The translations under genes were made by a program, and so were the position numbers. Below, piece after piece: positions 23,693 to 64,000 of a stretch of 64,000 bases of DNA; within the stretch, counting starts at the first letter, position 1, and the number at the start of each line of letters is the position of its first letter. The notes beneath the pieces were generated by a model. It was not told the DNA's origin. It did not search any database and saw only the letters and a list, made by a program, of their open reading frames with translations. Source of the stretch: a virus; the IMG/VR virus record IMGVR_UViG_3300028840_004242, positions 23,831-87,830 of that record; one strand, written 5' to 3'.

Positions 23693-24627
23693 AATTTACA
23701 TGCCAAGTATAATGAATACACTATACCTGCCCTTTTTCCTGTGTTATAGTATGGTTCAATAAAAAGGCTGATTATTTCAGCTAACCTATCGTCCTCATTT
23801 CTACCAACCAGCACTTTGCTTAAATAGTTTAGTATTCCTACCCGTGCGCTCTCCTGCTTATCGTCCTCAATAGCCACTATATATGTTCTCATTTTAGCCC
23901 AACTTATACCATCTACTAAGCCTTGACATATTTGCTTCAGTGTGGCTTCTCCAATAATGCCTTCACGAACCATCTTTAGAGCTTCCCTTGGCTTCTCTAT
24001 GTAGCGCACCATGTCAAGGGTTTTCAGCGCCGCTCTACAACTGCCTTCACTCACTTTGGCAATTTCTTGCAGTACAGGATCAGGAAATTTAATTCCCTCC
24101 TTCTCACATACTATCTTTAACAACCCCACCACTTCGTGGCTTGCCAGTCTTTTAACTGTATAAATGTGGCAGCGATTACGGATGGTGTCGAGTAGCTTTT
24201 CAGGTTCGGTAGTGCAGAGGGCGAAGTAAGCAAAGCTGGGTGGTTTTTCAAGTAGTCTGAGCACAGCATTTTGAGCTTCATTAGTGAGTTTATGACACTC
24301 ATCTAGTATGTAAAATTTAACCTTACCCCCCATAGGTCTTAACTTAGAGAGCATGTCAATCTCTCTCATCGTGTCAATACCCCTAGTGTTGGAAGTATTT
24401 AGGTATTGGAAGTCCCTATCATGACAGCCAAGGATGTCTTTGAGAATCATAGCAAGGGTTGTTTTACCACACCCACTAGGACCAGCGAAAAGGAAACTAT
24501 GGTGTTTTATATCATCTTTAGTGTAAGACCTAAGCGTTTCTACCAGCGTTTTATTGCCTACGAAGTCGTCGAATGTCTTGGGTCTGTACTTTTCAGGTAG
24601 GCTTTCGTCTAATAGCATGTTGGACAT
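23689..24627 (-). CDS. Sliding-clamp loader ATPase (RFC small subunit / gp44 type)
   Basis: 312 residues. LPEKYRPKTFDDFVGN is the RFC box II-like N-terminus, FAGPSGCGKTTLA Walker A, FYILDECHKLT Walker B with DEC-H, FALCTTEPEKLL sensor 1 and SEGSCRAALKTLD sensor 2. The AAA+ protein opens the beta-type clamp encoded at 28,929. No second (gp62-like or delta) subunit is recognised. The gene is preceded by repeat copy 2. Confidence 0.9.
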   Translation of the reverse strand: MSNMLLDESLPEKYRPKTFDDFVGNKTLVETLRSYTKDDIKHHSFLFAGPSGCGKTTLAMILKDILGCHDRDFQYLNTSNTRGIDTMREIDMLSKLRPMGGKVKFYILDECHKLTNEAQNAVLRLLEKPPSFAYFALCTTEPEKLLDTIRNRCHIYTVKRLASHEVVGLLKIVCEKEGIKFPDPVLQEIAKVSEGSCRAALKTLDMVRYIEKPREALKMVREGIIGEATLKQICQGLVDGISWAKMRTYIVAIEDDKQESARVGILNYLSKVLVGRNEDDRLAEIISLFIEPYYNTGKRAGIVYSLYLACKL

Positions 24628-30474: not shown

Positions 30475-30665
30475 TTAGATTGATCCACTAAGACAGTTAT
30501 TCTTCCTTTTATTGTTAAAAAGGATAGTTTCAGTAATCTCCATCCTACTCTCCTTGCTTCTTTCCTAGAGATATTTAGAATTACCATTTGTTTAGGTAGG
30601 GTAGTAGTGGTTACTGGAATTTTACTCGTAGAAGAATCAGTTTTATTATTTGATGTATTAGTCAA
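30471..30665 (-). CDS. Small hypothetical protein, start uncertain
   Basis: 64 residues from TTG 30665, which overlaps the dpdA-like stop (TTGA); AAGGA is eleven bases upstream. Thr/Ser-rich N-terminus, basic C-terminal half (SRKEARRVGWRLLKLS). Unknown family. Confidence 0.45.
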   Translation of the reverse strand: MTNTSNNKTDSSTSKIPVTTTTLPKQMVILNISRKEARRVGWRLLKLSFLTIKGRITVLVDQSK

Positions 30666-31849
30666 AATAAGTTGAATCCTTTCGGCATTTTGTGGCGCTT
30701 GAAAGCCCAAGGCCAGTCAGGTTGACTCTTTTCTAAATCTAGATAGTAAAGTATGTTCAATTCATCTCTTACTCTGTAGTCAGTAGCAAGGCCCTTTTCA
30801 ATTTCGATTTCAACTTCCCGTTCTTTATCTCCTTTTCTTCCACTAACGAATCTCTCATTATCCTGGAGGTCGTAGCCATTGCCGACAAGTTTATACTTAC
30901 AACTTCCAAGTCGGAAACCTTTTTCGTGGTAGTAATTAAGGATGAAATTTCGTTCAGCAGGTGAGTAATTTGAGATATGTTTTCCCTGCATCTCTTTAAA
31001 CGGACTTCTATCTGAAACTGCAACGCTGTGGGGCGAGACGTTGTAGACACGTTTACCTCCTTTTGTTCTTGGAGTCAATACTATACCATACTTACCATAT
31101 TTTACCCAGCTGGCACTATCCACACTGTACCAGGGATAGCGACTAACAAGTTCAGGTGCTGTCACCGCGAAGCCATGTACTTTAACCCGCGGGATGCCAT
31201 TGTCGTAGGTCAACAGGTAATCCCAAATGTCATCCAACGGAGGTATAATAACTGAAGTAGGGTTAGGAACCAATCCACCTATTGCTATGTACTCATAGCC
31301 TTTAGCTAGATACATCTCAAGCCATTTGATCTCGCATCCAAAATGCCAAACAGGTATAGGCTTTAGGCCTTTGCTCTCCATATACTGCTGATTCTCCCAG
31401 GTAGCTTCTGCATTATTAATCACATCAAGTACGGCATAGACTTCTAGGTTAGGAAGGTACTCCTTAATAAACATGGTATACTTGCGACGATAGATTTTGT
31501 ATTCGTTCATCTCAAGGAAGCTGAAGTCATCATGCTTCCTGTCCTTTAGGTAACTTCCCATGTAAGTGTGAGCACCTCCTTCTTTGTTTCTCACAAGGGA
31601 GTTATAAAGGCTAGGAGCCCCAGAGTCCATAAATATCTTTACATCGTCATATTTCACCATATACTTTATCCTTTCCCATAAATCCCTTACAGTTCTATCC
31701 CGTACCTGAAGTAGCTTAATTGCGGTGTGAGGTCTCATTCCTATTCTAGGAGTAGCAGGAGGTTTGCTTATAGCATTTCCCAGCTCTTCTCTTAGATTGA
31801 GTATATCGTAAGTGCCTTCAATGCTGAAATGATTATTATAGAGTTTCAT
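30662..31849 (-). CDS. dpdA: DpdA-like 7-deazaguanine DNA transglycosylase (TGT fold)
   Basis: 395 residues. FMDSGAPSLYN (about 76-86) matches the DSGAFS nucleophile/base-binding loop of queuine tRNA-ribosyltransferases, YIAIGGLV the GGLA substrate pocket, and VKVHGFAVTAPELVSRYPWY with VDSASW the typical DpdA barrel signature. DpdA swaps guanine in DNA for a 7-deazaguanine base. folE, queD and queE in the same block support this. It starts with ATGA overlap and the adjacent small paralogues may be partners. Confidence 0.8.
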   Translation of the reverse strand: MKLYNNHFSIEGTYDILNLREELGNAISKPPATPRIGMRPHTAIKLLQVRDRTVRDLWERIKYMVKYDDVKIFMDSGAPSLYNSLVRNKEGGAHTYMGSYLKDRKHDDFSFLEMNEYKIYRRKYTMFIKEYLPNLEVYAVLDVINNAEATWENQQYMESKGLKPIPVWHFGCEIKWLEMYLAKGYEYIAIGGLVPNPTSVIIPPLDDIWDYLLTYDNGIPRVKVHGFAVTAPELVSRYPWYSVDSASWVKYGKYGIVLTPRTKGGKRVYNVSPHSVAVSDRSPFKEMQGKHISNYSPAERNFILNYYHEKGFRLGSCKYKLVGNGYDLQDNERFVSGRKGDKEREVEIEIEKGLATDYRVRDELNILYYLDLEKSQPDWPWAFKRHKMPKGFNLF

Positions 31850-32112
31850 TCCATGTATGTTCTTTCCGTTGTGTCTTCCTCTTTTTCACGTTCAGGACAG
31901 GGAACCTCTTCTCCAGTTTCAGAATCAATACACTTATAAATAAACACTCTCTTCCTCTTATTATGAGGCCTAATAGGTCTCGTTGTGTGGATTCCTTCGC
32001 TCTCAATTCTTTTGTTATCAATATATATTTGGCGAGTACTTTTGGGCAAGTCACCTGCCTGACTTATCATCACTGTTGCTAACAGTATAACAGCTATCCT
32101 TAGTACCTTCAC
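31846..32112 (-). CDS. Small secreted protein
   Basis: 88 residues from GTG 32112. Residues 1-19 are a signal peptide (VLRIAVILLATVMISQAG), the remainder basic then acidic with two Cys (YKCIDSE, VPCPERE) that could form a disulfide outside the cytoplasm. Located between the glycosyltransferase and dpdA genes. Function unknown. Confidence 0.55.
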   Translation of the reverse strand: MKVLRIAVILLATVMISQAGDLPKSTRQIYIDNKRIESEGIHTTRPIRPHNKRKRVFIYKCIDSETGEEVPCPEREKEEDTTERTYME

Positions 32113-33152
32113 AATTCCTCCAATATAGTTAGCATTTTCTCTATGGCAAACTTTCCTTTCATTATAAACTTTTGTGCCAGTATTTGAGCCATCACTTGCA
32201 TGGCTTCAAAGTATTGTTCATCTGTTACCATCTTTACAATCATACCTACGCATTGACCAAAATTGTGAAAGCGAAACTCTGCAGGGTACAGCTCTTGGTA
32301 GCTTAGTCTGTTTGGTACCAGAGGAATACACCCACACATCACAGCCTCTTGCATAGCTATACCCCAAGTTTCCTGCTCTGCAAAGCTCACTGCTATGCTT
32401 CCATTATTCAGCATATTGTAGTATTCTTGTTTACTCTTTATCATATCCTTAGTCTTGAAAAAGTTCCATTTGCTGAAGTCAACATCAGACTCACGACATG
32501 CTTTCTCTAGTTCATCAAACATGTGAGGATTCTTTTCTATGTCCAGTCGGTGTGGAAATAATATGTCCTGTCTAGGACGAGGGTTAGGATTAGCAAACTC
32601 AGGATAGATAGGCAGACCTGTGATGTGTATTTTATTATCTATATCATGTGGTTTACTGGGTGTCCATCCTCTTTGTTCTAATATTAGATTTTTATGAAAT
32701 TGAGTAGCTACAAATATATGATCGATAAACTCCAACCATCCTCTTTCAATCCACTGTGCCCACCTCGTCATTCCTACTCTGTGGAGCATGTCGTGTTCGT
32801 CATAGCTACCAGCATGTAGTATGCCAGCTATTTTGAAATCAATTTTCAGTGCATCTCTCATATAGGCTAACATTTCAATACCAGGAAACCAGAGGTCGTG
32901 AAATAGGAATGTGTCGCCTGGCATTACTTTATTCATCCAGAATAGTTGACAGATAGTGGATAATTGGTTAGCTTTAAAATGATTGGTAGTTATGACATCA
33001 AGGAAGCTACCCTGCTCTATTTTGTTAGATAGTGGAGTGGGATATACAGTTTTGCTCTCGATTTTCAATCGTTTAAGCTCTTCAGGGAACCATTTGTTCC
33101 ACTGTTTACTGTACCTCTCCTCAAGACTTTCGATTGGAATGTTGTAAATCAT
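32109..33152 (-). CDS. GT4-like glycosyltransferase in the modification block
   Basis: 347 residues. The C-terminal half has the GT-B signature SFAEQETWGIAMQEAVMCGC, with the E-x7-E spacing of retaining GT4 enzymes, and LFPHRLDIEKNPHMFDEL as the donor-site loop. It abuts the radical SAM gene and lies two genes from dpdA, so it may glycosylate a modified base or another phage product (inference). No link to the fibre block beyond fold. Confidence 0.7.
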   Translation of the reverse strand: MIYNIPIESLEERYSKQWNKWFPEELKRLKIESKTVYPTPLSNKIEQGSFLDVITTNHFKANQLSTICQLFWMNKVMPGDTFLFHDLWFPGIEMLAYMRDALKIDFKIAGILHAGSYDEHDMLHRVGMTRWAQWIERGWLEFIDHIFVATQFHKNLILEQRGWTPSKPHDIDNKIHITGLPIYPEFANPNPRPRQDILFPHRLDIEKNPHMFDELEKACRESDVDFSKWNFFKTKDMIKSKQEYYNMLNNGSIAVSFAEQETWGIAMQEAVMCGCIPLVPNRLSYQELYPAEFRFHNFGQCVGMIVKMVTDEQYFEAMQVMAQILAQKFIMKGKFAIEKMLTILEEL

Positions 33153-34429
33153 ATTATCCCCAGTCTGGCAAGTATAGCATAAAAGGTTGCAGAGTCTGCT
33201 ATACTGATGCCTTCTTTAAGATTGCGTAGAATATTTTCCCATACTGTACCTGAATTAGGTATGCCTATATCAGGAAGTCTGTAAAGATTGATGTAATAAT
33301 CTAAATCTTCGTGGTCTTGTCTGTGTTTTATGAGTTGAGATAGGAAACTGTTAGGCAGGTAACTGGGAAGCAAACGCATCGGTCTACTTGAAATGAACTT
33401 ACCTCTCTTCTTGAGTTGTGAGTAATCTTTAGTTCCATGATAGGGCTGAAAGAATTGTCCTAATCCCCCTTCAGTTCCATTAGTACGGACCCGTCCATAC
33501 AGCTCTTCAGGTTTAAAACCATGCTCTCTTAAAAACTTTCCAGTTTCGTTTAGAGTTTTCAGCGTTTCACCTGGGAAGAACGTCAGGGCTAACCAGAATA
33601 TATCAACTGAGCATTTCTCAGAAAGTTCCTTGCATTTATTGACAGGGGCTTTACCCATCTTCTTACCTAAGTCAGGGTCGGCCGTCTCCATGCCTATTTC
33701 AATCAACTTCATACCACTGTCTGTGAGCACCTCATTACCATGAAGGTCAATAAAACGGTTTACAGTGGTTACTTCACCTAGAGCGATAAAATTAAAACTT
33801 CCTAACCGTGCAGCATGATTCAGTATTTCAAATGCTCTTTGGTGATCGAAAAAGAAGTCCTCATCTGTAAAATGAATGTTATTGATATCTCTTTCTATAC
33901 AGTGATCGAGCATCATTTTGACATCTTCTATGGGAATTACTATTCTCTTCCTACCACAGTTAACCGTAGAGGGACAGAAAGCGCAGCCTCTTGGACAACC
34001 ATATGAGGTAAACAGTGGATATACCTGCCCCTCATACTTTGTAAGATGCATATCACAATCACTCAACAGCAGATGTTTTAGTGAGGCATAGCATTGAGGA
34101 TAATTGTACATTCCTGCCAATATCATTTCTTCTTTAGGATACCAGTGCTTTAATTTAAGGTGTTTAATTAAAGGTGTGTACCCAAAGAAAATAGGCTGTT
34201 TAGGAAGGAACTTATTGAGCATGAGGCAGAGATCTATCTGCGGATATGACCAAAGAGCTACCAAATAGTCCTCTGCCTTTGGTATTCTGTTAATTTGTGC
34301 CATAGTGAAGTCTTCCATTAGCCATGCGTTCTGTTTTAAGGCTATGCTGTTGTAGACAATATAGGGAAGATAACAGAAGCTGCCTCGGTTGACTTCTGGA
34401 CTTGTGGGATCAATAACTACTACTTTCAT
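33149..34429 (-). CDS. Radical SAM protein with B12-binding-like N-terminus
   Basis: 426 residues from ATG 34429 (KVVVIDPTSPEVNRG); upstream start codons would overlap the preceding gene. Residues 1-135 look like a reduced cobalamin-binding Rossmann domain, then SYGCPRGCAFCPS supplies the CX3CX2C cluster ligands (Cys145, 149, 152). IHFTDEDFFFD and IEIGMETADP are typical of the B12-dependent radical SAM group. Such enzymes methylate or rearrange unreactive carbons. Its place between QueD-like and glycosyltransferase genes suggests nucleotide hypermodification (inference). Confidence 0.75.
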   Translation of the reverse strand: MKVVVIDPTSPEVNRGSFCYLPYIVYNSIALKQNAWLMEDFTMAQINRIPKAEDYLVALWSYPQIDLCLMLNKFLPKQPIFFGYTPLIKHLKLKHWYPKEEMILAGMYNYPQCYASLKHLLLSDCDMHLTKYEGQVYPLFTSYGCPRGCAFCPSTVNCGRKRIVIPIEDVKMMLDHCIERDINNIHFTDEDFFFDHQRAFEILNHAARLGSFNFIALGEVTTVNRFIDLHGNEVLTDSGMKLIEIGMETADPDLGKKMGKAPVNKCKELSEKCSVDIFWLALTFFPGETLKTLNETGKFLREHGFKPEELYGRVRTNGTEGGLGQFFQPYHGTKDYSQLKKRGKFISSRPMRLLPSYLPNSFLSQLIKHRQDHEDLDYYINLYRLPDIGIPNSGTVWENILRNLKEGISIADSATFYAILARLGII

Positions 34430-34433
34430 AGGT

Positions 34434-34772
34434 TTACCTTGGTTCGAATGTTCTGTAGTATTCTGCTCCATTTTCACCATCCTCAAATACACTCACATAG
34501 TCAGCCTTAAAGTGGTCTGCGAGCTGTTTACATATCATCTCGCAACTCCTATGCCCTAGGTCCATTGTCATATTTGCATTGATATATTCCTGTACTTCCC
34601 ATTTCATCATGAAGAATTCTATATCTCTATCGTCATGATGAACAATCCACTTCATCTCTACATGGAACATGTGACGATGGGGCTCTCTTAGGAAAGCTAC
34701 TTCATCCGGTGCGCTAGGCCAACAATGCAAGGCTTCAAATTGAGTTCTAATTACAACGAATGTTTTAGGCAT
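34434..34772 (-). CDS. QueD/PTPS-like T-fold protein (divergent)
   Basis: 112 residues from ATG 34772, overlapping the upstream stop (TAATG). QFEALHCWPSAP followed by REPHRHMFHVEM places His16, His32 and His34 like the zinc triad of QueD (FDAAH, then HGH), and a terminal SVFEDGE resembles the catalytic-Glu region. The usual Cys before HxH is missing, though Cys17 follows the first His. So it may be a second, altered carboxy-tetrahydropterin synthase or a binding protein of that fold. Call is tentative. Confidence 0.5.
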   Translation of the reverse strand: MPKTFVVIRTQFEALHCWPSAPDEVAFLREPHRHMFHVEMKWIVHHDDRDIEFFMMKWEVQEYINANMTMDLGHRSCEMICKQLADHFKADYVSVFEDGENGAEYYRTFEPR

Positions 34773-35158
34773 TACTTCCTCCAATAAAGTGACCAGTCAC
34801 ATCCATCCTTGTCAGCTAAGAAAGGGAAGATGTGCCAAATAACCCAGGTAGGTTCATGTTCGTTTAAGGCATCACAGTAGTCTTTTTCAGGATACACGTA
34901 TTCGTTTGGGACATCTCCGTCTGCTGCTGCTCCAGGAGAAGCACCTGCAGATGCAGAACCTCCAGAACCGCCAGAACCGCCAGAACCACCTGAACCTCCA
35001 CCGTCGTCTCCACCTGAACCTCCACCGTCGTCTCCACCTGAACCTCCACCGTCGTCTCCACCTGAACCTCCACCGTCGCCGCCCCCACAACTCAAGGCGG
35101 GATTTACCACAAGGGCAAATACACAGACGATTGCTAAAATCCAAATTATTTTTCTCAT
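34772..35158 (-). CDS. Exported Gly/Asp-repeat protein
   Basis: 128 residues. A signal peptide (IIWILAIVCVFALVVNPALS) is followed by Cys24 and four copies of an 8-residue GGDDGGGS-type unit, a GGS/GSGG run and a small Cys-containing C-terminal part (YCDALNEHEPTWVIWH). The repeat could bind Ca2+ or act as a flexible spacer; whether Cys24 is lipidated is unclear because the preceding residues ALS are a poor lipobox. Strange company for nucleotide-modification genes. Confidence 0.65.
   Translation of the reverse strand: MRKIIWILAIVCVFALVVNPALSCGGGDGGGSGGDDGGGSGGDDGGGSGGDDGGGSGGSGGSGGSGGSASAGASPGAAADGDVPNEYVYPEKDYCDALNEHEPTWVIWHIFPFLADKDGCDWSLYWRK
34987..35082. repeat. Tandem 24-bp repeat, four units
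   Basis: Units of CACCTGAACCTCCACCGTCG plus four more bases at 34,987, 35,011, 35,035 and 35,059, the last with changes. They encode the GGDDGGGS repeat of the surrounding gene. The first three units are almost identical, implying recent slippage or recombination. A shorter 9-bp repeat (AGAACCGCC) adjoins it. Confidence 0.9.
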
Positions 35159-35183
35159 TTTAGTATCTCCTTAATCCCCCTGA

Positions 35184-35384
35184 TTAATAAGCATCAACGT
35201 ATTCACACATTATAGACAATGCTTCATCATAACTGCCACTATGAAAAATTCTATCTACCATCTCCTTAGCCTCATCATTAAGGCCTTCCTTTCTAAGGGC
35301 TTTCTGGCAGATTCCCATAAGGTTGAATACATTACCATTTTCTCCAACGAGTTTTACTTTTGGTTTCTTTTTCTTTTCGTTCAT
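35184..35384 (-). CDS. Small conserved phage protein
   Basis: 66 residues (KVKLVGENGNVFNLMGICQK, then SGSYDEALSIMCEYV). This looks like a small protein often seen in phage replication regions, of unknown function (recall, not search). ATG overlaps the folE stop. Confidence 0.65.
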   Translation of the reverse strand: MNEKKKKPKVKLVGENGNVFNLMGICQKALRKEGLNDEAKEMVDRIFHSGSYDEALSIMCEYVDAY

Positions 35385-35968
35385 TCTATCATCCCCTGCA
35401 TCATTGAAAGTTTGATTAAGTCCATTGCTTCCGCTCTTGCTTTTGCATCCTTTTTAAGAACTCCAGATAAAGAAGAGGTTATCATTCCTGCTCCTCCACT
35501 CTGCTTTACTCCTCTGCATCTCATACAGCTATGAATAGCTCGCATTACGAGTATAGTTCCTTTAGGTTCAATTTGTTTGTCAAATTCTTTAATGCAGTTC
35601 ATACATAGGAATTCTTGAAGATTAGGGCAAGCACTATAATGCTCTATAAGGCGTGAGGGTTTAGAGGCACCTATAACAAATTTATCTGGAATATATCCCA
35701 TCCAAGCGTATCCCTCAAAAGGTAAGAAATGATGACTACACCAACTTACGAAGTGTATTCTATCTAACATTATTAGCTCTTGAATGTTTTCTTCGTTTGG
35801 AAACTTGGTGAGTTTTGGTTTACATTCCATTTTAGCATTCCTGAAAATATGACGATACATTTTTGCCATACGTTCAGGGGTGCCAACAAGGTTGGGGTCA
35901 TCTAACGACAACCCCAACCCTTGTTCGATGATCAGCTTGAAACAATCCTTGATAAGTCTTTCATTCAT
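35381..35968 (-). CDS. folE: GTP cyclohydrolase I
   Basis: 195 residues. GTPERMAKMY and SWCSHHFLPFEG are the FolE signatures; Cys77, His80 and Cys151 (CMRCRGV) are the expected zinc ligands. It converts GTP to dihydroneopterin triphosphate, the first step toward 7-deazaguanines. Close to queD, queE and dpdA, so it most likely feeds DNA modification. The N-terminus is shorter than in bacterial FolE. Confidence 0.93.
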   Translation of the reverse strand: MNERLIKDCFKLIIEQGLGLSLDDPNLVGTPERMAKMYRHIFRNAKMECKPKLTKFPNEENIQELIMLDRIHFVSWCSHHFLPFEGYAWMGYIPDKFVIGASKPSRLIEHYSACPNLQEFLCMNCIKEFDKQIEPKGTILVMRAIHSCMRCRGVKQSGGAGMITSSLSGVLKKDAKARAEAMDLIKLSMMQGMIE

Positions 35969-35971
35969 GAA

Positions 35972-36481
35972 TTATTCCTTCGCTTCTCCTTTGGCAGGTG
36001 TAGCCTCCCCACCTTCTTCCTTTTCGATCCTCTTTTTGGCAATGCGAATGTAGATGTCGATTCGCTTTTTGATGAAATCAGCGTCTTTCTGATCCCGCTT
36101 GTGATACCTTTCAGTGAATGCCTTAGCGATTTCATTTTCAGATTTGCCAGCTTTGACCATGTCGTAGGCTAACTGCTCATTAGAAGGTCCTTCCCGTTTA
36201 GGTCCTTTCTTCTTGGCAGCTTCCATCGCGGCAATCTCTTCAGGGCTAGGATCTTTCCCTTCGACAATGCTGTTATAGAATTCCACGACGGAATCCGGCA
36301 GCTTCTTTTCTTCCTCACTGCCTTCTGGAATGCTATCTACGGCCTTGAGAAAACTGTCGACCATGACCTCTTTCTTAATGCCTACGGTCTTCAACTTCTC
36401 TTCCAGAACACCGGTTGCATTGAGAGCACCAATCTGCTCTCTCAGCTCTTTTGCGTTTACAAATTGCGGACTTAATGCCAT
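35972..36481 (-). CDS. Hypothetical protein upstream of folE
   Basis: 169 residues after a strong AAGGAGG. Charged and helical; NEQLAYDMVKAGKSENEIAK looks like a helix-turn-helix-type repeat segment and the tail is Glu/Lys-rich. First gene behind the promoter candidate at 36,557. High-quality start and codon use like its neighbours suggest strong expression. Function unknown. Confidence 0.7.
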   Translation of the reverse strand: MALSPQFVNAKELREQIGALNATGVLEEKLKTVGIKKEVMVDSFLKAVDSIPEGSEEEKKLPDSVVEFYNSIVEGKDPSPEEIAAMEAAKKKGPKREGPSNEQLAYDMVKAGKSENEIAKAFTERYHKRDQKDADFIKKRIDIYIRIAKKRIEKEEGGEATPAKGEAKE

Positions 36482-36556
36482 AATGTGTTACCTCCTTGTG
36501 TGATATTTGAGCTCTCGCCCAGTTAGTTATTCAGCCTTTCAGCTAATTATAGCTAC

Positions 36557-36590
36557 ATTATAGAACGTTTCCATTGGTGTTTATAAACTT
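36557..36590 (-). promoter_or_regulatory. Promoter candidate ahead of the folE-side operon
   Basis: Minus strand TATAAT at 36,557-36,562 lies in the 130-base gap upstream of the gene starting at 36,481. The -35 is poor (TTATAA or TATAAA), but ATGGAAACGTTC between them matches the spacer of the promoter at 49,830 (ATGGAAACATG). Confidence 0.4.
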
Positions 36591-36613
36591 TTTGATGATA
36601 TTTTTTAGGCAGT

Positions 36614-37270
36614 TTACCTAGGTTCTGGAAGTTTCACCAATTTGTGCAACTGAAGGCTGAGCTGTACGTCCCAAATATTGTCTTCCAGCATCCAATAGTA
36701 TAGAGCAGCAGGTTCTAACCTATCCAGGACTGGAGAGAAAGCGCACCTTGCCTTGGAATTTCTCTGTTTCAGTCTCCTATAAGCTCTTTTTGCCTCTTGA
36801 TAGTCACTCTCGTCTGATATCACAAATTTAACCACGTCATTTTGGGAAAACACGTTAGTATTAGCCCATTGAAAAACATCACCTACTCCTGCACCAGGCA
36901 GCTTATAGTCTACCACATAGCAATCCACGGTGCAGAGCTGCCGTGGGGGTAGAGCGTAGGCTCCATTTGTTTCTACCGTAACGTGGAATCCTTTAGTTCT
37001 AACCAGTGAGATAAACTGAAGCAATTCTTCCCCTTGCTCTAGTGGCTCACCCCCTGTGATCAACAAATAGGGACCTTTATACTTCTCCACTCTTTCTATT
37101 AACCTAAAAATGTCCATTTCCTTGCCTACTCTAGGATCTTGGGCATACTTTGTATCACAGTAGTTACAACCTAAGCTACACCCAGCAGTTCGTACGAATG
37201 TTGCCCAACTACCCTGTCCACGGCAATTTGCCTCCCCGTGTATGCTGGAGAAAATGCTGTAAATCTTCAT
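36614..37270 (-). CDS. queE: 7-carboxy-7-deazaguanine synthase
   Basis: 218 residues. The radical SAM cluster is CSLGCNYCDTKYA (Cys31, 35, 38), preceded by the QueE-typical FSSIHGEANCRGQGSWATFV and followed by LLITGGEPL. It converts carboxy-tetrahydropterin to 7-carboxy-7-deazaguanine (CDG). Its start overlaps queD by 62 bases, which is long but the AGGT site at GGAGGTACGTC supports it. Confidence 0.93.
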   Translation of the reverse strand: MKIYSIFSSIHGEANCRGQGSWATFVRTAGCSLGCNYCDTKYAQDPRVGKEMDIFRLIERVEKYKGPYLLITGGEPLEQGEELLQFISLVRTKGFHVTVETNGAYALPPRQLCTVDCYVVDYKLPGAGVGDVFQWANTNVFSQNDVVKFVISDESDYQEAKRAYRRLKQRNSKARCAFSPVLDRLEPAALYYWMLEDNIWDVQLSLQLHKLVKLPEPR

Positions 37271-37640
37271 GACGTACCTCCACGTAACTGGTTGGTGTTT
37301 CCCACAGCCTTACTTTTGAAATACCTCTATCCTCTTCCTCTTCAAAGTATTTATCTAGCTCATAAAATATCTTAAAGGCTATGATTTCTGCTGTGGGATT
37401 CTCAAATATATCATTTAGGTAAGAATGATCAAGGTTGTTAAGAACAACCTCTTCTACTAAATCTTTTAGATCTTTAAAGTCAATAACCATTCCTTCTATT
37501 GTGCTTCTTTCATTCGTAACTACAGGTCCATATGCTTCTACCTCCAACTTATAGGTATGACCATGTAGCTTATTACAGTCCCCACGATACTTAGGTAGTT
37601 GATGAGCTGCATCAAATGTAAATGTCTTTCCTACTATCAT
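37209..37640 (-). CDS. queD: 6-carboxy-5,6,7,8-tetrahydropterin synthase
   Basis: 143 residues. FTFDAAHQLPKY and CNKLHGHTYKLEVE give the catalytic Cys22 and zinc ligands His13, His26 and His28; DFKDLKDLVEE and LDHSYLND follow as in the family, and the terminal LWETPTSY has the catalytic Glu. It makes the substrate of QueE. Good GGGAGGTAACTAA site. Confidence 0.93.
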   Translation of the reverse strand: MIVGKTFTFDAAHQLPKYRGDCNKLHGHTYKLEVEAYGPVVTNERSTIEGMVIDFKDLKDLVEEVVLNNLDHSYLNDIFENPTAEIIAFKIFYELDKYFEEEEDRGISKVRLWETPTSYVEVRHEDLQHFLQHTRGGKLPWTG

Positions 37641-44648: not shown

Positions 44649-45482
44649 TCAGTTAAACATAACCTTTCTGATTCTATCTTCTAACTGCTGACGGCGTACT
44701 TCACTGGCTATATGGTGTGTGGTAAACTGTGTGAGTATATTGTAGAAGATCCACATATTCATATACTCTTCTGCTTCCTTCTCCCATTTACCGCCCATTT
44801 CATGTAAAGCTAACCAGCGGGCTAAGTTAGCGTTGGTGCTTGTTTCAGGTTCTTCCAACAGCAACGTGGTCTCTTTGTTATTAAGATCCAATTTCTTTTC
44901 CACCTTTTCAAACTTCTCAGGCAGTAAAGGGGTAGAGGTCCAATCCTGCCACTGCTTCCTTTGGTCGTCGATAGCTGTAAAACCATCTTTGAGTGCATAC
45001 TGTACATCTTCCAAGTACAGGTCAGGCATGTGGCGTTTCTTGTACTTAGCGAAGGTTTCTCCTATAACAAGACCGTTCGTGCATACCATTCTAAATGCTC
45101 CCAGCATCACTGTGTGTTTACAACTACGGTCATAGCTGTTGAAAACCTCCAGTGTGGGATTCATAACGTCATCTTTCCCACGGAATTTAACTACTACCTG
45201 AGCATCGTCAAACCTGTATTTGGTCCTCATGCGGGCGCCGTCTTTGTAAAGGAACACATGCTTGGAGTAGGAACCAAAATCTACTGTATTTCTTTCCAGT
45301 ACTTCCTCTACATTCTCCAGCACCTTTTCATGCCTTACCAGTTTGTATTTAGGGCTGACGATATCATAAATCTGGTCTGTTTCGACATTCCTCACCGCCT
45401 TGTAGTTCTCAGCAGTAATGCCAGCCACCTCTACCGTTGTGAGTTCTACTTCAGGGAACTCAGGTGTAACTTGTTGTTCCAT
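44649..45482 (-). CDS. DUF932 family protein
   Basis: 277 residues from ATG 45482 after AACAGGAGG. YKLVRHEKVLENVEEVLERN, EVFNSYDRSCKHTVMLGAFR and MVCTNGLVIGETFAKYKKRH match the conserved DUF932 phage/plasmid protein pattern. The family is widespread in phages and plasmids and has no settled function. Confidence 0.78.
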   Translation of the reverse strand: MEQQVTPEFPEVELTTVEVAGITAENYKAVRNVETDQIYDIVSPKYKLVRHEKVLENVEEVLERNTVDFGSYSKHVFLYKDGARMRTKYRFDDAQVVVKFRGKDDVMNPTLEVFNSYDRSCKHTVMLGAFRMVCTNGLVIGETFAKYKKRHMPDLYLEDVQYALKDGFTAIDDQRKQWQDWTSTPLLPEKFEKVEKKLDLNNKETTLLLEEPETSTNANLARWLALHEMGGKWEKEAEEYMNMWIFYNILTQFTTHHIASEVRRQQLEDRIRKVMFN

Positions 45483-45714
45483 GATAAACCTCCTGTTTTG
45501 GGATTGATATGTCAAATTTATATGGACTTTTACCTATTTCTTTTATACTATCCTTTAAGATTTCAGTCCATTCTATTTGGAACTGCCAATACCTTCTTTT
45601 ATAACTGTACCAACAGAATACCGCGTGGTCTTCTATGATTGCAATTACATGTATCACTTTATTAGAAACCATAGGTCTTTCGTAGTGGTATTTATAACCT
45701 GGTTTTAGTTTCAT
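45460..45714 (-). CDS. Hypothetical protein
   Basis: 84 residues, beta-rich with many Tyr and Trp (KYHYERPMVSNKVIHVIAII). Overlaps the DUF932 start by 23 bases. Unknown. Confidence 0.6.
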   Translation of the reverse strand: MKLKPGYKYHYERPMVSNKVIHVIAIIEDHAVFCWYSYKRRYWQFQIEWTEILKDSIKEIGKSPYKFDISIPKQEVYHGTTSYT

Positions 45715-63282: not shown

Positions 63283-63978
63283 ATGGTAGATATAGCTCGA
63301 GGAGGCGATATCCCTCATGTACTTCATGGTACGCAGAAGGATTATAAACGCCTATATTATTCAGACCACATGGCAGCTCTTCGTGTTCCTGTCACCCTTC
63401 AGGCTGGTTATGGCTTGATTGAACAAGGTACCACCTTGGCAAAGAACCTGTCGGCTGCTGGTGGGAAGGCAAAACTTTTGCCTTACGCTCCTACTACCTT
63501 CCCAGCGGACGTTGATAATGCGCGGGCTTATTTGGTTGCTAATAGTGGAACTACTGATAAGTTCGTGTATGTTACCTTGGACGATAGTTATAAGTTCCAG
63601 GTAGGCGACGATGTTATCATCAATGACAACACCACCGCTGCGGAGAACAAGGGAGCGATCACGGCTATCGATCGTACTTCTGATCCACATCGTGCAAAGA
63701 TCACTTTCACGACTGCTATTGGAGGTACTGCTTTTACAACCGCCCGAAGAGCCTACATCATTGTCGAAGCTGGCACGAGTGGTAATAATTACTCAGATTG
63801 TGTCGGTATTTTGGAGAAAACTGTGGATACAGGCACTGGTGTTACGGCTAAAGGTGCTGTTGCAACCCTTATACTTGGTAATTGCGTTCTGTACACAGGA
63901 TGTCTTACCAACTTGGATGCCGCTGCTATTGCCGACATTAGCTCTGCTACTTTCGGCCAATACACATACATCCGTTAA
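63283..63978 (+). CDS. Head decoration or minor capsid protein
   Basis: 231 residues after ATAGGAGGTG. Small, beta-rich, Ala/Thr/Gly-rich (GGKAKLLPYAPTTFPAD, VYVTLDDSYKFQVGDDVIIN). It follows the protease/scaffold where decoration proteins are often found; a capsid protein should follow, since a GGAAGGAGGTGAA ribosome site is at 63,988-64,000. The lack of typical HK97-fold length argues against it being the major capsid. Confidence 0.6.
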   Translation: MVDIARGGDIPHVLHGTQKDYKRLYYSDHMAALRVPVTLQAGYGLIEQGTTLAKNLSAAGGKAKLLPYAPTTFPADVDNARAYLVANSGTTDKFVYVTLDDSYKFQVGDDVIINDNTTAAENKGAITAIDRTSDPHRAKITFTTAIGGTAFTTARRAYIIVEAGTSGNNYSDCVGILEKTVDTGTGVTAKGAVATLILGNCVLYTGCLTNLDAAAIADISSATFGQYTYIR

Positions 63979-63987
63979 TTCCACGAT

Positions 63988-64000
63988 GGAAGGAGGTGAA
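63988..64000 (+). promoter_or_regulatory. Ribosome-binding site of a gene beyond the window
   Basis: GGAAGGAGGTGAA at the last 13 bases, ten bases after the preceding stop. Its start codon lies outside; by gene order it probably serves the major capsid protein. Confidence 0.7.

Follow-up and report, generated by a model that had tools for sequence, protein, structure and literature searches.

The gene block analysed here is, on balance, best read as a self-contained, QueC-independent operon for the 7-deazaguanine hypermodification of DNA, yielding a glycosylated 7-deazaguanine; the linkage of its genes and the folds of their products are observed, and from them we infer the chemistry. It lies in a window of 64,000 nucleotides (positions 23,831 to 87,830 of the IMG/VR record IMGVR_UViG_3300028840_004242), in which Pfam and PHROG profile matches place queD, queE, folE and an intact dpdA on one strand (30662-37640, minus strand), and three genes between folE and dpdA encode a second QueD-fold protein, a radical-SAM enzyme and a GT-B glycosyltransferase (GT). 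More tentative, with slightly less than an even chance of being right, is the wider proposition that hundreds of phage genomes use as a DNA base a glycosylated 7-deazaguanine derived from 7-carboxy-7-deazaguanine (CDG), which would be edited by the radical-SAM enzyme in the present lineage, QueC being replaced by a QueD-fold CDG-processing enzyme and a GT4-type GT.

The genes predicted by homology to lead to CDG are readily recognized. QueD (6-carboxytetrahydropterin synthase; 37209..37640, minus strand) matches the PTPS family (PF01242, E 1e-32) and phrog_2389, and carries the Cys and HxH Zn motif as C-N-K-L-H-G-H. QueE (CDG synthase; 36614..37270, minus strand) matches the QueE-like phrog_2076 (E 2e-32) and the Radical_SAM family, its CSLGCNYC motif conforming to CxxxCxxC, and FolE (GTP cyclohydrolase I; 35381..35968, minus strand) matches GTP_cyclohydroI (PF01227, E 3e-42). 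The dpdA gene (30662..31849, minus strand) encodes a DpdA-type DNA-guanine transglycosylase of the 9g-like group, a TGT-superfamily sequence that groups with phage DpdA (phrog_887 'queuine tRNA-ribosyltransferase', E 8e-37; 34-36% identity to the DpdA proteins of Queuovirinae by tblastn). A profile search of the PDB with this protein returned no matches. Loss of the catalytic Asp residues, which an earlier sequence-only reading of this DNA had named as counting against such a function, is not what is found, as the candidate catalytic residues D75, D142 and D244 are conserved throughout the 12 relatives aligned. The single block of folE, queD, queE and a DpdA-like transglycosylase described in that reading is thus confirmed, and the 7-deazaguanine DNA-modification pathway that it proposed is supported by the intact dpdA and the CDG-synthesis genes. 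Insertion of the base into tRNA, in the manner of a queuosine-like glycosylation, would agree with the membership of DpdA in the TGT superfamily and with the existence of glycosyl-queuosines in tRNA. We nevertheless regard it as scarcely credible, the protein grouping with phage DpdA, of which the 9g member modifies DNA and does not complement tgt (PMC6884629), and the window containing no tRNA genes.

The absence of QueC, noted before for the window, extends to the whole genome: PF06508 gave no match at E<=1 across the 87,830-bp record and two sister contigs (87,833 and 87,797 bp), and the search of the remaining genome, which had been suggested for QueF as well, found no match to PF14489. 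The record ends in an exact 144-bp overlap and the sister contigs break at other positions, so we consider the 87.8-kb genome complete. No near relative at the DNA level was found in a search of phage records. Thus neither the QueC of a preQ0-type phage pathway (in the complete genome and both sister contigs) nor the Gat-QueC, QueF or QueF-L of a dG+/preQ1-type pathway is present. FolE, QueD, QueE and a DpdA of the same group are shared with the preQ0/dG+ pathway of Queuovirinae (Escherichia phages 9g and CAjan; Vibrio phages), which however possesses QueC or Gat-QueC where the present block has the QueD paralogue, the radical-SAM enzyme and the GT. A downstream amide form of the base, also considered in the sequence-only reading, is unlikely, since the amide is made by QueC, which forms 7-amido-7-deazaguanine as an intermediate (PMC13329287).

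The second QueD-fold protein (34434..34784, minus strand; 116 aa; phrog_17812, E 3e-25) adopts a T-fold according to its AF2 model (pLDDT 92.5), for which E. coli QueD is the best Foldseek match (TM about 0.75), and hhalign links it to QueD at 94%. Three Zn-binding His residues (H20, H36, H38), the pocket Glu E101 and the stretch S80-C81-E82 are invariant in the alignment. The catalytic Cys of QueD (CxxxHGH) is missing, the aligned position not being Cys, and the protein is therefore a paralogue; the possibility that it serves as a spare QueD was rejected on this ground. It is a candidate CDG-processing enzyme, and it is possibly the protein called DpdL.

The glycosyltransferase (32109..33152, minus strand) scores below the cut-off of Pfam Glycos_transf_1 (17.1 against 26.4 bits); its AF2 model (pLDDT 92) has a GT-B fold that Foldseek matches to MshA/BshA (E about 1e-11 to 1e-10), and the alignment reveals the Arg/Lys donor-binding pair (R202/K207) and the EX7E motif (E261-x7-E269), the features of a GT4-type retaining enzyme. 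The homologue in Acidovorax phage ACP17 superimposes with a TM of about 0.9, and no relatives were found in a scan of bacterial genomes. The third gene (33149..34492, minus strand) encodes a radical-SAM enzyme with a CPRGCAFC cluster motif of the CxxxCxxC type (PF04055, E 6e-11), whose nearest solved relative is AprD4, an aminoglycoside sugar diol dehydratase (PDB 6fd2, E 2e-10); the likeness concerns the radical-SAM domain, and diol dehydration is only a candidate role for the phage enzyme. On inspection of a six-member alignment, the N-terminal domain showed no cobalamin motif (DxHxxG), and AprD4 scores above CysS, so cobalamin-dependent methylation was rejected. Overlaps of 4 bp link the radical-SAM gene to that of the GT, and an 88-aa ORF (31846..32112, minus strand) to its neighbours on either side, the GT gene and dpdA; this ORF had no family match in the PHROG search.

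Comparison of related loci suggests that these genes stand in the place of QueC. Among 80 DpdA-anchored loci, 28 have the GT only, 38 QueC only, none both and 14 neither; phrog_17812 is present in 28/28 GT loci and missing from the remaining 52, and a Pfam scan of whole contigs for QueC agrees with this exclusion. In an unbiased comparison, all ORF families of same-lineage neighbourhoods were clustered blindly (41 GT-type, 38 QueC and 14 neither), and only phrog_17812 and the GT separated the classes perfectly (41/41, 0/38 and 0/14). The radical-SAM gene is confined to GT-type loci (24/41 versus 0/52 of the others). A 169-aa protein with no assigned function (35972..36481, minus strand) occurs in 12/41 GT-type loci of the lineage and in 0/38 QueC loci by BLAST clustering, to which a looser profile adds two QueC loci. 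As the loci are related, with only about three changes of the QueC/GT state on the DpdA tree, they cannot be counted as independent events, and the Fisher test value of 4e-11 is not taken as a probability. When the loci are anchored on the GT instead, phrog_17812 is found in 78/80 and FolE/QueD/QueE in 71/80. The pair formed by phrog_17812 and the GT also accompanies two further DpdA-like families (72/80 and 60/80 loci); none of the 160 loci anchored on them was found to have QueC. These two families, called DpdA-like from TGT motifs and context only, match each other in profile comparison, and hhalign detected no direct profile link between them and the DpdA group of the window. Viral sequences in their hundreds show this conserved exchange of QueC for the GT and its partner enzymes. 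In five loci, a methyltransferase gene fills the slot after CDG.

These distributions bear on the earlier suggestion that QueC is encoded elsewhere or by the host, in which case its absence would be incidental and the DNA would carry preQ0 (or dADG). Many bacteria do encode QueC, and 9g dpdA expressed alone in E. coli gives dPreQ0 in DNA (PMC6884629). However, reliance on the host would predict neither the exclusion of QueC by the pair within the lineage nor the recurrence of the pair with two further DpdA-like families, where QueC is again not found, and we consider it improbable. The phage thus probably does not depend on its host for this step, QueC having given way to a different final part of the pathway.

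In the QueC-independent pathway that we favour, FolE, QueD and QueE would produce CDG, on which the phrog_17812 protein may act in the stead of QueC, most likely by decarboxylation or another Zn-dependent change. DpdA would put the CDG-derived base into DNA in exchange for guanine, and the GT would add a sugar to this base before or after insertion; the radical-SAM enzyme would probably edit sugar or base afterwards. The resulting bulky glycosylated 7-deazaguanine is expected to block restriction enzymes, an effect analogous to that of T4 glucosyl-hmC. The carboxy form envisaged by the sequence-only reading therefore stands in so far as a carboxy-derived base is likely, but that reading missed the three genes most probably processing CDG further. 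Conceivably, the phrog_17812/GT pair does not build a DNA base and instead consumes or masks CDG, so as to counter immune systems that depend on it (type IV CBASS Cap9, QatC); for these two QueC-family proteins, attachment of carboxy-deazaguanine to partner proteins has been proposed (PMC13329287). We think this very improbable, since the operon itself makes CDG and DpdA is found in nearly all loci, which argues for incorporation rather than removal.

Some points speak against the glycosylation step. Neither CDG nor 7-deazaguanine possesses an obvious hydroxyl for O-glycosylation, and with a median pI of 5.7 the GT proteins are acidic, which is not typical of DNA-binding proteins, so that glycosylation may precede insertion or the enzyme may have another target. 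Plain dCDG or dDG in DNA, with phrog_17812 as the predicted decarboxylase DpdL and a GT directed at a pterin, the nucleotide pool or the host surface, is the alternative that we take most seriously, unlikely as we judge it to be. It gains from the structural resemblance of the GT to a tetrahydrobiopterin glucosyltransferase (PDB 9v0l) and from Cellulophaga phage phiST, where phrog_17812 has FolE/QueD/QueE and a short DpdA-like protein as neighbours but no GT; as phage Roos also carries phrog_17812 without a GT, the two are not obligate partners. A scan of IMG/VR found no relatives of the phiST phrog_17812 protein. Both dCDG and dDG have reportedly been described in phage DNA, and DpdL as a predicted CDG decarboxylase, by Cui et al. 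in 2023 (NAR), among whose bases we know of no glycosylated deazaguanine; the phages concerned share the QueC-less CDG branch, to which the present block adds the GT and the radical-SAM enzyme. Against this alternative, three DpdA-type backgrounds show the GT linked with phrog_17812 and DpdA, and it is the GT that swaps with QueC; so close an association with the modification pathway would not be expected of an enzyme with an unrelated target.

Decoration of a modified DNA base by a GT-B glycosyltransferase, as proposed here, has a counterpart in phage T4, which forms glucosyl-hydroxymethylcytosine by means of its alpha-GT and beta-GT. There the modified base enters by dNTP replacement, whereas here a 7-deazaguanine would enter by transglycosylase base exchange, and we saw no close similarity between the present GT and those of T4. 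Mycobacterium phage Bipper, which has FolE, QueD, QueE and DpdA, shares the QueC-less set, and CDG has already been suggested as its base; it is compared here by its published description, which has it lacking only QueC and mentions no GT (PMC6884629). The searchable literature yielded nothing relevant on glycosylated deazaguanine in phage DNA; such a base would be new, in distinction to dCDG and dDG, which are reportedly already published.

What appeared as a missing QueC can be turned into a testable rule: once CDG is made, the next step is open to exchange, being taken by QueC, by the QueD-paralogue/GT cassette or, in those five loci, by the methyltransferase gene. The rule further offers candidate roles for phrog_17812 and phrog_10773, at present both families of unknown function, and predicts that DNA of a new class, with sugar-bearing deazaguanine, occurs in the culturable phages ACP17, PA5oct, Xanthomonas phage X1, Phosso and BUCT-ZZ01, all of which have the GT and phrog_17812 arrangement and no QueC above the cut-off. 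In the first four of these the pair lies beside FolE/QueE as in the present block, but the clusters have DpdA-like proteins of phrog_10773 or of the 540-aa PA5oct type, without a radical-SAM enzyme of the present kind, and their GT and phrog_17812 genes are mostly annotated as hypothetical.

The sequence-only reading had placed folE, queD, queE and a DpdA-like transglycosylase gene in one block, and all four were recovered intact on the minus strand with strong family matches: queD (37640-37209), queE (37270-36614), folE (35968-35381) and dpdA (31849-30662). The DpdA shares 34-36% identity with Queuovirinae DpdA, and its three candidate catalytic Asp residues, whose loss would have told against the proposed pathway, are invariant in 12 relatives. 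The entire record likewise lacks QueC, which had been reported missing from the window, as do two sister contigs of near-equal length (E<=1, a search that detected QueC in control genomes), and no QueF was found in the genome. The window is the final 64,000 bp of the 87,830-bp IMG/VR record, which is classed as linear; since its termini share an exact 144-bp overlap (window 63857-64000, record positions 1-144) and the sister contigs, whose compared stretches show 99.9-100% identity, are broken at different places, the genome is complete, or mapped as a circle, with a length of about 87.7 kb.

The block itself held up as to its four named genes, but three further genes between folE and dpdA had been overlooked, encoding a phrog_17812 protein (34434-34784), a radical SAM protein (33149-34492) and a GT4-type glycosyltransferase (GT; 32109-33152), all on the minus strand. 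The phrog_17812 member (116 aa), from a family annotated as "unknown function", is modeled as a T-fold (pLDDT 92.5) with E. coli QueD as top structural match; in alignment the three Zn-binding His and the pocket Glu are kept, the catalytic Cys of QueD is lost, and a Ser-Cys-Glu is invariant. The best solved relative of the radical SAM protein is AprD4, an aminoglycoside sugar dehydratase. For the GT, a GT-B fold was modeled with confidence (pLDDT 92), MshA and BshA being the nearest structures; 35/36 homologues conserve the EX7E pair and the Arg/Lys that bind the donor. Successive 4-bp overlaps link radical SAM, GT, an 88-aa ORF and dpdA, a pattern indicative of translational coupling. Within the operon, a 128-aa ORF (34772-35158) is rich in Gly and Ser, of low complexity and signal-like at its N-terminus; a DUF932 protein (44649-45515; 5.7e-20) lies upstream of the replication genes.

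Among 80 loci selected by DpdA only (profile scan with the window's DpdA group), 28 carry GT without QueC, 38 QueC without GT, none both and 14 neither, some of these last being short contigs. phrog_17812 occurs in 28/28 GT loci and 0/52 others, and a whole-contig Pfam search for QueC, where run, agrees (GT contigs 0/14, QueC-labeled 8/8, "neither" 0/9). So that the genes compared were not hand-picked, every ORF of these loci and of 13 GT-anchored loci was clustered: phrog_17812 and GT were the only families present at 41/41 GT-type, 0/38 QueC-type and 0/14 "neither" loci, the radical SAM protein being found at 24/41, 0 and 0, respectively. Further families (e.g., 893-, 517-, 339- and 310-aa proteins) are common to the neighborhoods at similar frequency, indicating that the loci are close kin; as the QueC/GT state switches only about three times on the DpdA tree, including one QueC locus (L152) within a GT clade, the counts are not 80 independent trials. 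A SAM methyltransferase (Methyltransf_23, also matching mRNA guanine-N7 MTase) occupies the slot before folE in L133:8357-9223, L136:7971-8834, L121, L139 and L159, that is in 5/14 "neither" and 0/79 other loci. These form a third class of the same lineage, with DpdA and without QueC or GT, and the enzyme is a possible alternative methylating 7-carboxy-7-deazaguanine (CDG) or the base.

When 80 loci were anchored on GT instead, phrog_17812 was present in 78/80, FolE/QueD/QueE in 71/80 and a DpdA-like protein in 69/80, with QueC near GT in 0/80. Two mutually homologous DpdA-like families with tRNA-guanine transglycosylase (TGT) motifs, phrog_10773 and the PA5oct 540-aa type, to which no profile link from the window's DpdA was found, anchor loci with GT in 72/80 and 60/80, many GT-less ones ending at contig ends, and with QueC in 0/160; contigs of the three DpdA-type sets partly overlap one another and the GT-anchored set. 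This arrangement is also found in the cultured phages Acidovorax ACP17, Pseudomonas PA5oct and kin, Xanthomonas X1, Sinorhizobium Phosso and Synechococcus BUCT-ZZ01; their whole records lack QueC, X1 giving only a sub-cut-off match. Proteins of phrog_10773 (L005:10715-11989), the PA5oct 540-aa protein (L007:8364-9986) and phrog_20335 (L256:14813-15592), annotated as unknown or hypothetical, adjoin 7-deazaguanine genes and bear TGT/DpdA-like motifs (DSGGFQ or LDNGA, later Asp-Ser or Asp-x-Ala-Ser). Another family, with no assigned function and members mostly of 155-220 aa (L005:10233-10718 and kin), occurs in 47/80 GT-anchored loci, chiefly alongside the PA5oct-type protein.

A mechanism can be built on what was observed: which genes are present, how they are linked or exclude one another, their predicted folds and their conserved residues. 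By homology, FolE, QueD and QueE would make CDG, and DpdA would swap bases in DNA. QueC converts CDG to the amide and then to preQ0 (PMC13329287). Because the cassette stands in place of this enzyme, its expected substrate is CDG or the DNA-borne form of CDG. A Zn T-fold with the pterin/deazaguanine-anchoring Glu, and without QueD's Cys, makes phrog_17812 a plausible CDG-processing enzyme. It may decarboxylate CDG, which would match the DpdL step reportedly described by Cui and colleagues in 2023. The Cellulophaga phage phiST cluster (L256:11487-15592) comprises QueD, QueE, FolE, MazG, phrog_17812, an AAA_18 kinase-like protein and a short DpdA-like protein; phrog_17812 without GT, beside this QueC-less pathway, fits decarboxylation. 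The base would next be glycosylated by the GT; the radical SAM protein, present only alongside GT, would act after that enzyme. One weak point of base glycosylation is that there is no obvious acceptor atom. Another is that GT proteins are acidic (median pI 5.7), so that glycosylation could precede DpdA, on the free base.

CDG as a DNA nucleoside was reportedly found in phage DNA in 2023, and QueC-less phage pathways were already noted in 2019 in Mycobacterium phage Bipper (PMC6884629), so that the carboxy form suggested from sequence would not in itself be new. The PA5oct deazaguanine system is mentioned in passages of a jumbo-phage review that do not tie a GT to deazaguanine (PMC7824862). 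The literature searched, with the key 2023 paper outside its scope, yielded no description of a GT/QueD-paralogue cassette or of glycosylated 7-deazaguanine in phage DNA.

In Chryseobacterium phage MA9V-3, an annotated ORF (L258:9464-10345) fuses a phrog_17812 domain to an HNH/endonuclease VII-like domain. In the QueC-less cluster of Xanthomonas phage X1, a PAPS-reductase-type PP-ATPase (L008:10332-10865) directly follows folE and, QueC itself being a PP-ATPase, could be an unusual substitute for it.
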